64,000 bases of DNA from Sialis fuliginosa (lineage: Eukaryota; Arthropoda; Insecta; Megaloptera; Sialidae), in assembly GCA_961205875.1 (NCBI GenBank), contig OY540810.1, positions 12,028,001 to 12,092,000 of the forward strand, in the 5' to 3' direction. Below are positions 31,866-47,690 of this stretch, one piece after another. A program made the position numbers and the translations under genes. Below the pieces are notes generated by a model. The model was not told the origin of the DNA. It ran no database searches and saw nothing but the letters and a program-made list of their open reading frames with translations. Each line of letters begins with the position of its first letter. Position 1 is the first letter of the stretch.

Positions 31866-33453
31866 TCTACTATATATAACGAAGTGCCCTGACTGACTGA
31901 CTCACAATCATTTTTTTGACCATTTCCACTCATCGGAGAAACTTGAAATTTGGTATATACATTCCTTGGGGGTAAAAAATAACAACTAGTGGGCCTTTTT
32001 TGAAAAAGTTTATAAATGGGGTAACAAGGGGCCCCCAAATTTTCAAAAAAAAAGTTACAATTTATTTATTATTTTTTTTATATTCCTTGGGCGATATAAT
32101 GTAAGGTTCAAATTTCAGATTTAAAAAAAAAGAAAAAAAAAGGAAAAAAAAAGTTTTGATGTAAAAAACTATCAAAACGAAAACCGATATTAGATTTTTT
32201 TAATTTTTTTCAAATACTTTGGTTAATTGACAACCATGAACCCGTGTCTGATTTTTGAAAAAGATATGTTAAAGAGGAGAAAATAAACAAAATACGTTTA
32301 CATATAATGCGCTTTAAGCATTTACTAAATTAATTGCAAATGTCGTAACTATGGATACATTATATTTTATTGATTATTTTTTAAATTTTTAAATGTCAGT
32401 GGCCATTTAAAATTTTGAATTGAATGTGTTTAATATATGAACAATAAAATATAATAAAAAAGAAATATAAAGAACATAACGAATGAAAAAATATGGACAA
32501 CTCAAAGTAATGAATAATTAAAATTTTCGTACATAAATATGTCAAAAAAATTGAAGACAAACAATCACAGCATTCGGATGACTAACATTCGGCATAACAT
32601 AGGTAATACATTAAAATTTAAAACTTAAAGTTATTGATATATCAATATTTTTACCTACATAGGTATTTTAAATATCAGAAGTATTTATTTAATTAACAAT
32701 TAACATTGACGTAATTTTAAATGATATTTTTTTAATTGTTAGAATTTGTATATCTGTTAAGGATCCACATTTACTTATCTATGTATGCAAGCATCTGTAC
32801 CAATCTGTATATCATACATCTAAAATGTCAATGTGTATCTACTGTGCTCTAACTTTTAAATAGTTGAACTGATTTCAAATGATTTATTGCGAATTGTTCG
32901 AATACAGTGACAAAATTCGTTTAATTTACAAGAATATTTGATTTTAAAAAAGGTTAATCTTTTTTAATACGAAATGTAGGTAGGTATATACTAATATATA
33001 GTTAATTGTAATTAATTGTAGAAAGGATGTACAACAAGAATGTATACAAGCTACTAATAATATATTTATATAGAAACATTGATTTAATTTAGATGACTTT
33101 TTGAAAGACACGAGGAGAAAAACCGAAAATGAAATTATTTTTAATATTCATAAAATGTTATTTCAAATCATGTAAGTATATACAATATATTTAAAAGTCA
33201 GCATTATTCCATTATCATAAAAAAGTAATTATCATCTGTAGGCTTTCATGGCTGTTCATATATGAACTTTGGTTTCCGAACTGATGTCAACGTTTAAATG
33301 TTTTTTTGTTGCCGTTGAACATATGTATGGCTTGATGTTTCGACTTCCATGTCGGAGTCTTTTTCATATAAGACTAAAGGTATGTGTAATACAGGGTGAC
33401 AGATTAAGAGTAACCCATTCTTAATTAATAATATCGAAATAAGTAATCACTAA

Positions 33454-34229
33454 GGGTGCGTTCCAGATGGCACTTGTAACGTTACGATCATGACGTGTCA
33501 AATATTCTGAATGATGCAATTGTAAGAACCAATGAGTGTCAGTAAAAGCCAGAAATTAAACCGGATATATCTGATACAATTCCTTATACGTATATACCAA
33601 AGTTGTAAACAACGGAGCCAGCGGACATCTGTCAGGAGAGTAAGTCCCTCCTTTTTTATAATTTAATTAAATATCCTTAAGATTCTTTGTTTACCGGGGT
33701 TCATATTTTTCATCGTTGAAATGATTTGCATTATTTTGTGATTGTTGCAGAAATCAAAATTTGCATTTTACAATAATTTCTACAATCAAACTTATTTCTA
33801 TGCCGGATAGTTAAAATATTTTTAAAAAAACTATTATAATAATGTTTTTTAACTGTGATATTTTTCTTTGTTCTGTATTATTTTTAGTTTTGAACGAGTT
33901 AAAATTAAAAAAATTACCAAAAAAAACATTTATTTTTTCAGTTAATACGATAAGGAGTTAAAACTAACAGGGAATTGCTTTAGAGGTTCACGTGCGTTAC
34001 TTTCCTTCAATAACAATTTCACCGAAGAACCTCATTATGTTCTGATGAAGGAAGTATTCAGTCAAACATTTGGTGTTCCTAACCACCACCCAAAGAACCA
34101 GCCGTTCTTCAATAATGTTTACACATTCAGTGTTTTGGATAATCGTATATGGTTCAGGAACTTCCAGATACTGTCAGAAGACGGCGCTTTGGCTGAAATA
34201 GGGTCTAGATTCATCCCTGGAACGCACCC
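33454..34229 (+). mobile_element. TWA-TSD MITE (PIF/Harbinger-like) carrying a BRX1 gene fragment
   Basis: The ends are GGGTGCGTTCC...GGAACGCACCC, perfectly inverted over 11-13 bp. The flanks are TAA (33451-33453) and TTA (34230-34232). The opposite arm of the surrounding palindrome shows the uninterrupted sequence as CAC-TTA-GTG, so the target was TTA and the left copy carries one substitution. A 3-bp TWA duplication is typical of PIF/Harbinger. No transposase is visible. The interior holds intron-like sequence and the BRX1 exon at 33942-34212, plus a donor-like GAG|TAAGT near 33640 that might close another captured exon (weak). Confidence 0.75.
33942..34212 (+). pseudogene. BRX1: Captured exon fragment of ribosome-biogenesis factor BRX1 (Brix domain)
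   Basis: The frame through 33955-34212 reads about 85 residues that match the middle of the Brix-domain protein BRX1, a nucleolar factor for 60S ribosomal subunit assembly. Key stretches are LTGNCFRGSRALLSF, EEPHYVLMKEVF, HHPKNQPFF, and VLDNRIWFRNFQILSEDGAL followed by AEIGSRF. The ATG at 34045 is an internal methionine, not a start. An intact acceptor (TTTTTTCAG at 33933-33941) precedes it, so this is a genomic copy with intron sequence, not a processed cDNA. The first codons (33943-33954, reading NTIR) are one base out of frame with the rest, which suggests a frameshift near 33955. The homology stops at 34212, just before the transposon's right terminal inverted repeat, in mid-exon. It lies wholly inside the element 33454-34229. 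A functional BRX1 is not encoded here. Confidence 0.88.
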
Positions 34230-34269
34230 TTAGTGGGCCTAATTTTAATTATCAAATCTTTTGTGAACC

Positions 34270-34614
34270 TTAAAGTTTTTGTAAAAATGGTGTTATGGCC
34301 GATTGATGGTTTTCGACAGACGAGTAACACAAATTCTGTTTATTCCTCTTGCCAAGAAATTGGAAATGCGCTTCGTTGCTCATAATTATGATGTTAACAA
34401 AATTATTCCCTCTATCTAAAATCCAACGACTGAAATCCAAACATGTGTTTAAGTCATTTGGAAAAAGTTTTTGAGCGTTTTGCCATTTGTATGGATGAAA
34501 GTGTAAATCTTTCTTCAAAATTAGATTTGATTGATTAAAATTTGCTTCAATCCTGTTTGTTTTTCTTCTCCGATTCACTTCCAATTGTCTTGCGATTTGA
34601 AGCCACGGGAACAT
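34270..34614 (-). pseudogene. Degenerate Tc1/mariner (IS630-type) transposase fragment
   Basis: The open frame of 114 codons corresponds to the linker and start of the catalytic core of an insect IS630/Tc1-mariner transposase. 'LKKDLHFHPYKWQNAQKLFPNDL' resembles the usual 'ILHKDLxLxPYKxQxxQELxPND' block, and 'SNEAHFQFLGKRNKQN' corresponds to the 'SDEAHFxLxGxVNKQN' block. In the last block the catalytic Asp is replaced by Asn, so the enzyme would be inactive even if complete. The N-terminal DNA-binding domain and the rest of the core are missing. The apparent start methionine is accidental. It lies between the long TIRs of 33390-34764. Confidence 0.75.
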
Positions 34615-35591
34615 TTAATTGTTGTCGGAACCACCACTGAGTCTGAATAATTTAATTGGTTAAGGTTAACAAAAGATTTTACAGTTAAAATTAGGTTCAC
34701 TAAGTGATTACTGTTTTCGATATCATTAATTAAAAATGGGTCACTCTTAATTTGTCACTCTTTATATTAATTTGAAACATTTTTAATTCTATAGTTATGG
34801 CGTAAAAGTTATAAAACAATTTTTTATCGTTGTCGTATCAAAAACAAATGTGATATAAGTATGTAATATATTTTTATACGACAAGAGTTTAAAACATATC
34901 AAACAAAAACACTACGCCAATCGTTCATACTTAGGATACACCAACATGTCAAGGCGAAATTCAACATTAAATTAAAAATTTAATTATTTGTTGATCTGGA
35001 AATTATTATATTCCAATATTAGAAGTAAATTTTTTAATGAGAGTTTCAAATTATAGAGGTTATAGTTAGGTGACATCGATAGAGAAACCATAGATGTGAA
35101 CAGATTTTGATTTATCGAGATTCGACTTATAATAATGTGTGTATTTTTTTAAAATTAAATAATTTGGTGTGAATTTTGTTTTAAATTAAAATTTTGAAAA
35201 TAATTAACTTGGAAATTACTGTATTCCAATATAGATATAATTGAACAGAAAAAAAATTAAATAATTTTTACTTTAGAGATTAAATTTATAAACCCGAGTA
35301 ACACCGGGTCCAAAGCGTTAGTTATGTAAGGATTCCTTCATATTCATAAAGATACAAAATAAGTACATATCATGCTGCGGGGACATATCTTATAGAAAAT
35401 CGGAAGGCTCTGTAACGCGGAGACTTTGTATGAACTTGATTTTTGGGCTGTTATCCATGACATTGTATTAAAAAACTTGAAAATTAATTGATTCCAATAT
35501 AGAAATACTTTAATTGAAAAAAATTATTACAGAATCTTTACTTTACAGATTAAATGTATATACTCGAGTAACACCGGGTCCAGCGCGCTAG

Positions 35592-38500
35592 TCTACTATA
35601 TATAACGAAGTGCCCTGACTGACTGACTCACAATCATTTTTTTGACCATTTCCACTCATCGGAGAAACTTGAAATTTGGTATATACATTCCTTGGGGGTA
35701 AAAAATAACAACTAGTGGGCCTTTTTTGAAAAAGTTTATAAATGGGGTAACAAGGGGCCCCCAATTTTTCAAAAAAAAAGTTAGAATTTTTTTATTATTT
35801 TTTTTATATTCCTTGGGCGATATAATGTAAGGTTCAAATTTCAGATTTAAAAAAAAAAGAAAAAAAAGGAAAAAAAAAGTTTTGATGTAAAAAACCATCA
35901 AAACGAAAACCGATATTAGATTTTTTTTATTTTTTCCAAATACTTTGGTTAATTGACAACCATGAACCCGTGTCTGATTTTTGAAAAAGATATGTTAAAG
36001 AGGAGAAAATAAACAAAATACGTTTACATATAAGTCGCTTTAAGCATCTACTAAATTAATTGCAAATGTCGTAACTATGGATACATTATATTTTATTGAT
36101 TATTTTTTTAATTTTTAAATGTCAGTGGCCATTTAAAATTTTGAATTGAAAGTGTTTAATATATGAACAATAAAATATAACAAAAAAGAAATATAAAGAA
36201 CATAACGAATGAAAAAATATGGACAACTCAAAGTAATGAATAATTAAAATTTTCGTACATAAATATGTCAAAAAAATTGAAGACAAACAATCACAGCATT
36301 CGGATGACTAACATTCGGCATAACATAGGTAATACATTAAAATTTAAAACTTAAAGTTATTGATATATCAATATTTTTACCTACATAGGTATTTTATTAA
36401 ATTAATATGTAATCATAAATATCACAAGAATTTATATAATTTGAAAATAACATTGTCGTAATTTTTAATGATACTTTTTTAATTGTTGTTTGAATTTGTA
36501 CTTCTGTTATATTTACTTATCTATGTATGTACATCATTCAACTAAAATGTCAATGTGCATCTTCAAAATGTTTTGTAAAGCTCTGTTAAATAGTTCACAA
36601 GTATTAAATAATTTAAAAGTATTAAAATTATGATAAATGTTAATTGAAAATATCAATATATTTATATGAGACATTGATAGATGGCAAGCAGAAAAACCAA
36701 ATTATTTCTAATATCATGTAATCATGTAAGTACATAAAATACAATATAAACATATATTTAAAAGTCGGCATTATATTATTATTATTATAAAAGTAATTTT
36801 TTCTATAGGTTTTCATGGCTGTTGTTAAAATTAATATATGAACTTGGTTTCCGAACTGCTGTCAATTTTCTAATTTGGCATTTCAACATTCTCAACTATC
36901 ATGTTGAAATAAGTAATTGATGTAAAGGAGATTGAGTTCACGATTTAAACGAGAAGCTTTGCCACAAGAGATTAAGGTTCGTAGAGATTGTCCTAATCAA
37001 GGACAAAATACTTAATTAAATTTGAACAATGTACACATACAAGTACACATACGCAATATTGTTCGTTTAGTGTTTTTTCTAAATGTACCTCTATACTTCT
37101 GAAATCTTTTGCATTAGATGGGTGTTACACGCTCAGTCTGGCATCAGTTCAGTCCACGACTGACATCAAACTGATCGTGTAATACATTGACCGACAGACT
37201 AAATATTTTAATATTTTTCGTCAGTCTTGGTACGATGAAGGTCATGGACTGAACTGATGCCAGACTGAGCATGTAACACCTGTCTTGAGATTGTTTTGAT
37301 GGATGTGTCAGAGTTTATATCGTCCCCTAAAAGTCAATGTACTGTAAACGACATTTTTCTAATTTTACAAGACACAAAAATGAATAATATGATCCCAGAC
37401 GACATAATTTTCTTTAATAATATGTACTTTATTTTTATTTATTTTTGTAGGGGACGATATGTAAAAAAATTACGCTAAGCTCTAAAATAACGACACGTAT
37501 GATTAATTTAGTCCCTGTATCATATACATCATATACTTTTCAGAATCAATTGTGTAATTACAAGGCAGCTATAATGTGGACTTCAAAAAATCGTATAGGC
37601 GTGGAGACTTCCGTCACTCATAACACAGGGTGAACGTCCCATTGCAAAAAAATTGCTGATCATATTTAACTGCTGTTGGTCTACACTCTACAAAACAAAA
37701 TCTGAGTGGTCAATACCTCATTGATGACTTTCTTATGAAACGGACCTAAAAATTGTTTAAGACCGAGCGTAGAGATTTATTATACCTTTATATATACCTT
37801 TCCATCAAAACAATCCAAATGCAAAATATTACATAAACATCGGTATATAGAGACCTGATGAAGAGGTATAAAGCTTATTGTAGAAGACTAAGTGTTTTGT
37901 TTATTATATACTACGGTAAAAATATCTTTCATCAACGAACATTGGTACATATGTGTTTTTATACCTACACTTTAAGAAACTGATGAGCGTAGTTGATTAA
38001 GGAGTGCAGAGGTAGTTTGGCATGGAGTGAAAAAGTAGTTTTTTTCATTAATAACATCAAAACAGCTAATTTTATTAATAAGTATTTCAAATATTTTTTG
38101 TAGTTTTTTATTAGACCTTTAGTTTGTTTTTTTACCTCTGTGCATTGAGACTAGAGATATCATGTTGTGGCATGTGAAAAATAGAAATTAATTAAAATAG
38201 AAAGTCATAGTTAAAATTAAAATTGTTACAAATAAAAATTGATAACTGTAGATAGAATTTCAGTGTAAAGAATGATATTATCGATACAATATTAAATGTA
38301 AAACTGAGAAATTTTTCATATTGAAGTTTTATATACAACACAACCGTTTACACTTACGATACACCAACATGTCAATTACATTAAATTAAAAATTTGGATA
38401 TTTGTTGATCTGGAAATGATTATATTCCAATATAGAAGTAAATGTTTTTTAAAGAAAGTTTCGAGTTATAGAGGTTAACAGTTAGACAACATCAATAGAG

Positions 38501-38785
38501 ATCATATTTAGTTTGCGTAAAGGAGATTTTAGAGCCCGAAGGGAAGCGAACGGATTTTGATTTATCAAGGTCCGACTTATAAAGTTTCTACTGTAATGTG
38601 TGTGTAATTTTTTTTCCATTCAAATAATTAACTGTGTATTTTATTTTAAATTAAAATTTTGAAAATAGTCAACTTGGAAATTACTTGGTTCCAATATAGA
38701 AATAATTTAACTGAAAAAAATATTACAGAATCTCTACTTTAAGAGATTAAATGTATATACCCGGGTAACACCGGGTCCAATGTGT
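35592..38785 (+). mobile_element. Helitron-like element, copy 2, directly abutting copy 1
   Basis: It begins with the same TCTACTATATATAACG immediately after the CTAG of copy 1, with no spacer. It includes an 81-codon minus-strand shadow frame at 35656-35901 that is only A/T-run sequence. The tail at 38755-38785 has the CCGGGTAACACCGGGTCC hairpin but the CTAG terminus is lost (CCAATGTGTG). It contains a 160-bp inverted-repeat MITE at 37121-37280. Confidence 0.58.
37121..37280. mobile_element. Small inverted-repeat MITE inside Helitron copy 2
   Basis: The arms GGTGTTACACGCTCAGTCTG and its inverted partner ending CATGTAACACC match for roughly 40 bp. No clear target duplication is visible, so the family is not assigned. 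Confidence 0.6.
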
Positions 38786-46625: not shown

Positions 46626-47690
46626 CAGGGTGAGTAAGAAATATGGAATATTGCTTATATTTTCTAAAATATTCATTATTTAAAAAAATTTATAGAGAAA
46701 ATATTTCATATGTAATGCTAATCTTCAAAAAAATTGTGCTATCAGTTACGTTACTGTGGCATCCAACTTTTTTTTTAATGACAACATAAATTTTTTATAG
46801 TTTCTATGAATAGATCTTAATTTTTTGCATACAACCCTGTAAAATTTTAATGACATTGTATACGAAAAATTTTGAGAAGCCTTGGAAAATGACTGAAACT
46901 TGTAAAACATAAAAAATCTAACGACCAAATAAATTAATTTAACTATTGTTCAAAATGATGTCCGTTATTGTCCATATACATGACTTATATATTCTTGAAT
47001 GCGCCATATTCTTAAAAAAATCACTTAGACCTATTTTCGGAAAATGTAAATTCCCACATATATAACACAAGAAATAAAAACGATTTAATTCCACCAACTG
47101 GCAATCTCACTCCTGTCAATAAAGGCCCGCAAACAGTGATAATAAAAATTTACAATAATTTGCCACAAAATATAAAACTACTCCCCTTGACAAGGTTCAA
47201 GAATGAGTTAAAAAAACATTTATTAGATAAAAACTATTATAATTTAAGCGAATTTAATATGTTGTAAATAAACCTATGTACAATGTATAATATTATATTT
47301 ACTAACACATTCACATTTTTAACAGTATGACCATTTTTCTCAAGTTTAAGTCATTTTTCAAGGCTTATTTGGTTAAGTTGCCGTTAATGTGATCTGAGAT
47401 TATAAAAGATTTTTCTCAAAATTTTTCGTACGCAATTTCATTAAAATGTGTACAGGGTTGATTCAAAAAAATAAAATCTATTTATAGAATCTATAAAAAA
47501 TATATGTTGTCATTTAAAAAAATAGAGTTGGATCATGGATGCCATAGTAACGTAACTGATAACACCAATTTTTTTTTTGAAGATTAGCATTAGGTACATA
47601 GAAAATAATTTTTCTAAAAACTTTTAGAAATAAAAATAATGAATATTTAAAAAAAATATGAGTAATACATGATATATTTTACTCACTCTG
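46626..47690. mobile_element. Tc1/mariner-like element, copy A
   Basis: The left end is CAGGGTGAGTAAGAAATATG (TA at 46624-46625); the right end in inverse is CAGAGTGAGTAAAATATATC (TA at 47691-47692). The arms pair for about 300 bp. Near 46950-46970 (minus strand) 'MDNNGHHFE' resembles the C-terminus of insect IS630-type transposases, so the long arms derive from a transposase-bearing element. A LINE fragment lies in the core. Confidence 0.68.
47056..47267 (+). pseudogene. LINE reverse-transcriptase C-terminal remnant
   Basis: The frame from 47056 reads 'HIYNTRNKNDLIPP...NKGPQTVIIKIYNNLP' and after one missing base near 47160 continues in another frame as 'PQNIKLLPLTRFKNELKKHL...YYNLSEFNML' to TAA at 47265. 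This matches the tail of CR1/Jockey-type LINE ORF2 proteins (the 'YNTRxKNDL', 'GxKIYNxLP', 'FKxxLKxxL' and 'YYxxxEF' blocks). Only about 70 residues remain and the frameshift disables it. Confidence 0.7.

Follow-up and report, generated by a model that had tools for sequence, protein, structure and literature searches.

A BRX1 gene fragment in a terminal-inverted-repeat element nested in a mariner-like element and carried by a Helitron of Sialis fuliginosa

A 64,000-nucleotide stretch of the Sialis fuliginosa genome, hereafter the window (contig OY540810.1, our C2, positions 12028001-12092000; 28% GC), holds a fragment of the ribosome-assembly gene BRX1 enclosed by three transposable elements. 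The fragment lies between the terminal inverted repeats (TIRs) of a short DNA transposon, which can be described as a miniature inverted-repeat transposable element (MITE) or, for the host DNA it contains, as a Pack-TIR. This element splits one arm of a mariner-like inverted-repeat element (MLE), and the MLE sits in a non-autonomous Helitron (Table 1). A preliminary description of the locus had proposed this arrangement, and its limits for the MITE proved exact to the base, as did the outer limits it gave for the MLE with its TA flanks. We think it very probable that the nest is the product of a relay, in which a TIR element captured BRX1 DNA and inserted into the MLE, and a Helitron then carried and spread the whole.

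Table 1 Features of the nest and its surroundings, in window coordinates
Feature	Position	Strand	Remarks
Non-autonomous Helitron carrying the nest	31866..35591	+	5' end TCTACTATATATA, 3' end CTAG, between A and T
MLE split by the MITE	33392..34762	.	TA at 33390-91 and 34763-64
MLE sequence pattern			AATAAGTAATCACTTAGTGRRCC
Left target-site copy	33451..33453		TAA in the window
BRX1-bearing TIR element (MITE / Pack-TIR)	33454..34229	+	776 bp, perfect 13-bp TIR
Left TIR GGGTGCGTTCCAG	33454..33466	+
Non-BRX1 element DNA	33467..33791	+	No match to the BRX1 locus
Captured BRX1 intron, 3' part	33792..33941	+	145 of 184 parent intron nt; ends in acceptor AG
Captured BRX1 exon	33942..34216	+	276 of 284 parent nt; 1-bp deletion near start
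Right TIR CTGGAACGCACCC	34217..34229	-	Adjoins BRX1 exon sequence directly
Right target-site copy	34230..34232		TTA
MLE open frame, 114 aa	34270..34614	-	Possible transposase remnant
Second, diverged Helitron	35592..38779	+	Adjoins the first directly; no Brix match; right limit is the match end, no CTAG at 38779

A BRX1 fragment between terminal inverted repeats

The open frame at 33946-34212 matches the Pfam Brix domain (PF04427, E 1.1e-18), and its best relative of solved structure is human BRX1 (8fkp, E 8.8e-35). A Brix profile search of the whole genome (392 Mb, 20 contigs) gave 64 matches, with 64/64 candidates scored. Merged with two pattern searches, these come to 61 places. Five are Brix genes, 54 are copies of the element that have a Brix match and are distributed over 13 contigs, and two have element sequence and no Brix match. 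The five genes sit on contigs C4, C6, C7, C12 and C13. We call the C13 gene BRX1 because the matching exon is its own; exons 2 and 3 of this gene read through in frame, and exon 4 appears open by eye. Among 30 loci compared, all five Brix genes included, the C13 gene is the only one that matches the DNA of the element.

The match to the BRX1 locus covers window positions 33792-34216 at 88% identity (E 6e-149). It stops where the right TIR begins, and the BRX1 gene has neither the TIRs nor the left arm of the element. The preliminary description had seen an exon cut by the right TIR and had expected that at the parental locus the inner part alone would match, that the exon would be preceded there by the intron seen in the element, and that the TIRs would be missing; the C13 gene bears this out. 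The full 776 bp, which at the BRX1 locus would have meant a segmental duplication, was looked for there and is absent. The limits first given for the BRX1 part, 33600-34212, needed correction: we rejected 33600-33791 as BRX1-derived because the homology begins at 33792. When the 807-bp consensus of the element is aligned with the BRX1 locus, positions 370-794 alone match (374 of 426 columns identical), and the other listed hits are short and of low score.

The captured DNA has diverged from its parent by 10.3% in the intron and 11.3% in the exon. It breaks off 8 nt before the 5' splice site of the parent gene, and splicing in that gene's phase would give VNTIRS followed by a stop. Eight element copies were aligned with the parent; they and the consensus all have the same right junction and the 1-bp exon deletion, which the parent itself lacks. 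Since junctions and deletion are shared, a single capture event is the simplest explanation. One of the eight copies, L078, has lost the splice acceptor through a larger deletion; the other seven retain it. Because the parent match stops at the TIR, the gene has no TIRs and intron sequence is retained, the capture took place at the DNA level, as had been proposed from the retained intron.

Within the window, the 13-bp TIR is found nowhere but at the ends of the BRX1 element. The element interrupts the left arm of the MLE, and the right arm preserves the unsplit site CACTTAGTG, in agreement with the preliminary description. The MLE arms are 86% complementary between 33389-33454 and 34700-34765 and 87% between 34229-34273 and 34660-34704. 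The right arm and right TA are present in 20/20 copies, and the combination of TA duplication and inverted repeats is that of Tc1/mariner elements. To this extent the name mariner-like stands. The 114-aa frame, which may be DDE-like in appearance, has no transposase family match over the cut-off.

We read the element's flanks in 40 copies, 39 fetched plus that of the window, and recognised both ends in 38; L029 and L040 were left out of the count for an unrecognised right end. The flanks are TAA/TTA in 23 copies, TTA/TTA in 14 and damaged on the left in one (L033). Five further, more diverged copies have TTA/TTA (four) or TTA/ATA (one). Because TTA/TTA occurs in 14/38 copies as well as in the diverged ones, TTA is likely to be the original 3-bp duplication, and the TAA of the window a later change common to a younger subset. 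The TTA/TTA copies thus record movement of the element with a target-site duplication, for one insertion event only. Together with non-transposon host DNA inside a TIR element and an identified parent gene, this gives the element the features of a Pack-TIR.

The window copy is a deletion form of the element, with 31 bp lost at 33483/33484 between two ACGATC repeats. The subfamily so defined comprises 6/40 copies and includes the closest pair of the Helitrons compared below. Part of the non-BRX1 DNA (33641-33750) runs from GTAAGT to TTGTTGCAG and looks like a short intron. The donor-like GTAAGT at 33641 suggests exon-intron DNA from some other source, but a 24-mer of the region (up to 3 mismatches) has 56 places in the genome, 55 of which are element copies that also have a Brix match or the nest junction. 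The other is C3:36345790, which has the inner 24-mer only, with 3 mismatches.

Helitron-borne copies across the genome

We ran the pattern of the MITE/MLE junction genome-wide with up to 3 mismatches and a reversed control. It has 53 matches, and the control has none. To judge by its position, one of the 53 belongs to the right end of a copy that another match has accounted for. Given the E value of the parent match and this count of 53 against 0, chance is excluded. A junction match accompanies 51 of the 54 Brix-bearing copies. Two of the others, L029 and L074, have the same site with local damage, and the remaining one is C11:2852046. A further place, C11:619029, has the junction and inner sequence without a Brix match. 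To the left of the MLE, the same Helitron sequence is present in 40/40 copies (39 fetched plus the window). Copies L071-L074 and L078 are more diverged, at 94.5-98.6% likeness to the consensus over the aligned stretches, and share both the site and the Helitron sequence. The proposed nesting in a TA-flanked inverted-repeat element and a Helitron was accordingly seen in the copies read.

The mobile unit that copies the nest is the Helitron; neither this nor the multiple copies had been noted in the preliminary description. We fetched 20 copies with ~2.5 kb per side and located the Helitron ends. The 5' end TCTACTATATATA is present in 19/20, preceded by A in 17 and by G in two (L057, L065), and the outer 3' end, CTAG with a T after it, is likewise present in 19/20. 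L066 lacks the 5' end, and L054 has only the inner 3' end within the fetched stretch. Insertion between A and T (A in 17/19, T in 19/19) without target-site duplication, and termini of the 5' TC / 3' CTRR form (TCTACT...CTAG), are those of a Helitron. Flanking sequences vary from copy to copy, with the exceptions of L057 and L065, which lie after a Helitron end, and L052 and L061, which lie before one. The 19 Helitrons compared (18 fetched plus the window) measure 3673-3770 bp, apart from one of 4297 bp, and differ pairwise by 0.16% (closest) to 4.2% (farthest). The 10-11% divergence between parent gene and element exceeds this maximum, which would put the capture before the spread; as the oldest nested copies are 94.5-96.4% like the consensus, the age gap is smaller than it appears.

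Open frames inside the window Helitron reach at most 114 aa. In the second Helitron, which abuts the first, the 3' hairpin forms a stem of 6 bp (-6.3 kcal/mol); at the outer end of the window copy the structure is weak (-1.5). Two 3'-like Helitron ends lie ~270 bp apart (35206-35322 and 35474-35592; 82% alike), the inner ending in GTTAG and the outer in CTAG. With up to one mismatch, the Helitron 3' end has 142 genome matches. Among 100 of these that were listed, 51 fall within 8 kb of a BRX1-element place, which implies that many members of the Helitron family lack the nest or that their ends cannot be paired. The exact pattern of the 5' end had no matches in viral contigs and none in prokaryote contigs.

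Several of these Helitrons stand head to tail. A second copy starts directly at CTAG|TCTACT in L052, in L061 and in the window; L057 and L065 start after another CTAG end. The two Helitrons of the window are 91.6% alike over 999 columns (35592-36562 against 31866-32840). Because their likeness is this low, the arrangement looks less like a recent tandem product than like an insertion beside an end that was already old.

Elsewhere in the window, a 160-bp palindromic stretch (37121-37280, 71% self-complementary, with ends like GTGTTACACGCTCAGTCTGG) is possibly another MITE. An open frame at 47016-47264 presumably resembles the C-terminal end of a non-long-terminal-repeat reverse transcriptase. 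The Rfam search had no match within the window. A TTAGG array, the usual form of the arthropod telomere repeat, lies ~1.5 kb or less from the end of contig C1.

A same-TIR relative and the possible routes to the fragment

A relative of the BRX1 element lies on contig C14. We searched the genome for the exact TIR in a TWA context, excluding the base that precedes it in the nest and leaving mismatched TIRs outside the search, and obtained two matches, both on C14, in inverted orientation and separated by 7.46 kb. The ends of this element, the part that was read (540 letters), are inverted repeats of ~246 bp that are 99% alike, and the first 39 bp of the MITE left end are 90% identical to them. 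In the corresponding search (3/3 candidates scored) the C14 element is single-copy except for a 64-bp piece on C3, and the whole-genome Brix search had no match inside it. Family members with the TIRs and without BRX1 had been predicted; the exact-TIR search found one such element.

The superfamily of the BRX1 element was called PIF-type in the preliminary description, and we could not confirm this. PIF/Harbinger Tourist-like MITEs have a TTA duplication, a GGG terminus and a short TIR, and the BRX1 element resembles them in terminus and TIR and, at its MLE site, in the duplication. Its same-TIR relative has no PIF-type transposase among the matches listed. DDE_Tnp_4 (PF13359) is absent from C14:779324-786779 among the 150 matches listed (150/189 candidates scored), as is the piggyBac domain DDE_Tnp_1_7 (PF13843) among the 118 listed (116/161 candidates scored). 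Either end of the C14 element adjoins TTAA. These flanks fit three readings: a TTAA duplication, a TTA one with an extra base, or TA next to a TIR that is longer than assumed. Membership in PIF/Harbinger is therefore unproven. As an aside, a striking share of the transposase matches listed for DDE_Tnp_4 and the piggyBac type lie on C14, mostly at 2-9 Mb.

The relay that we favour would have had four steps. A TIR DNA transposon with ends GGGTGCGTTCCAG would first have taken up, at the DNA level, 421 bp from the BRX1 gene of its host, most likely when a break inside the element was filled with the BRX1 locus as template. The resulting Pack-TIR, with only 13 bp of its right end left, then transposed at least once into a TTA in the left arm of the MLE, as is shown by the TTA on either side of it and by the partner arm, which is unsplit. 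The MLE may already have been in a non-autonomous Helitron or may have entered one later; the nesting is observed, and either order would produce it. Finally, transposition of the Helitron would account for the package at ~54 places, a spread that is directly visible, with a rolling-circle protein probably supplied in trans.

Could the Helitron itself have taken up BRX1, by filler DNA or end bypass, with the TIRs a coincidence? Gene-fragment capture is known for insect Helitrons (3724 in silkworm, PMC3789558). The BRX1 match, however, runs exactly up to a perfect 13-bp TIR, which a further element of the genome also carries, and the element lies between TTA target-site copies in an arm of the MLE; we regard direct Helitron capture as very unlikely. 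A segmental duplication of a BRX1 locus that held an inserted MITE would explain why intron and exon are collinear with the gene. It would also put TIR and left arm at that locus, where they are missing, and the homology stops at the TIR; moreover, the element DNA has no match in any of the four further Brix genes, and the remaining Brix matches cluster with element sequence. The parent alignment led us to reject this highly implausible origin. That BRX1 mRNA was retrocopied and the copy then invaded by transposons has nothing but the exon in its favour; the alignment retains 145 nt of intron with the acceptor and has no adjoining exon, so the retrocopy was rejected too, its probability being close to nil.

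A different proposal concerns what the fragment does: it may have been kept for a function, for instance as a new exon, or as a source of antisense or small RNA directed at BRX1. There are 54 copies, most with a stop-free 95-codon frame, and small-RNA effects have been reported for plant Pack-MULEs (PMC8277862). Young copies would, however, be free of stops in any case. Splicing in the parent's phase would give the short VNTIRS peptide, and across 45 aligned copies the exon variants are mostly non-synonymous (27, against 8 synonymous and 0 stop) and spread evenly over codon positions (10/13/12). Variants per site are 0.127 in the exon against 0.107 in the intron part. Nothing in these sequences suggests selection on the fragment, and retention for function strikes us as unlikely. 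To judge from its sequence, the BRX1 piece is instead a passenger: broken in frame, without the parent's 5' splice site and without sign of constraint.

Several observations count against the relay as we have drawn it. No free-standing BRX1 element was found genome-wide by the junction, 24-mer and Brix searches, so the element's own mobility is attested by one insertion. The 23/38 copies with TAA/TTA, the window's among them, have no exact duplication, and the TTAA flanks of the C14 element do not fit a simple 3-bp TWA rule. The empty site is that of the palindrome's own other arm and does not come from an unoccupied MLE. Of the 338 bp to the left of the BRX1 part, a source is known for the first 39 bp only.

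A probable second-hand relay among known capture systems

The component processes are already known, and what we describe is a second-hand gene-fragment relay built from them. What is unusual is the relay itself: a Pack-TIR family is nearly absent from the genome while its BRX1 piece multiplies inside a Helitron. The capture boundaries, parent gene, intermediate carrier and target site are all readable here, and the 54 copies form a graded series for studying transcription, silencing and feedback on a ribosome-assembly gene. It is possible, if on balance doubtful, that second-hand capture is a general route, in which Helitrons act as landing pads for TIR elements bearing host DNA and then amplify them; the gene fragment taken up by a near-extinct TIR family would in this way survive and multiply within a transposon of another kind. 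We found no comparable relay in the open-licence literature.

The closest parallel for the inner element is the animal Pack-TIRs of Tan et al. 2021 (PMC8277862), which likewise have host DNA between TIR ends, an identified parent, DNA-level capture and multiple copies. That survey counts 370 Pack-TIRs in 100 genomes, mostly hAT and TcMariner, with none in the insects of its set and one multicopy fly family, Ssk-FB4, from population data; for single-copy Pack-TIRs its authors favour gap filling (PMC8277862). Multicopy animal Pack-TIRs are ascribed there to transposition of the Pack-TIR, whereas the copies described here come from the Helitron (PMC8277862). Plant Pack-MULEs and other Pack-TYPE elements (PMC8903248) are also TIR elements with captured gene DNA; our case differs from them in its arthropod-type genome and in the single Pack-element transposition seen. 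The vehicle has its counterparts among insect Helitrons, in which gene fragments are common (PMC3789558, PMC6544945). Like the silkworm and other insect Helitrons of those studies, it is non-autonomous, carries a host gene fragment and has spread recently (PMC3789558, PMC6544945). Helitron gene fragments are usually credited to capture by the Helitron, for which filler-DNA and end-bypass routes have been discussed (PMC6544945); here a different route can be read, in which the fragment arrived second-hand, inside another transposon.

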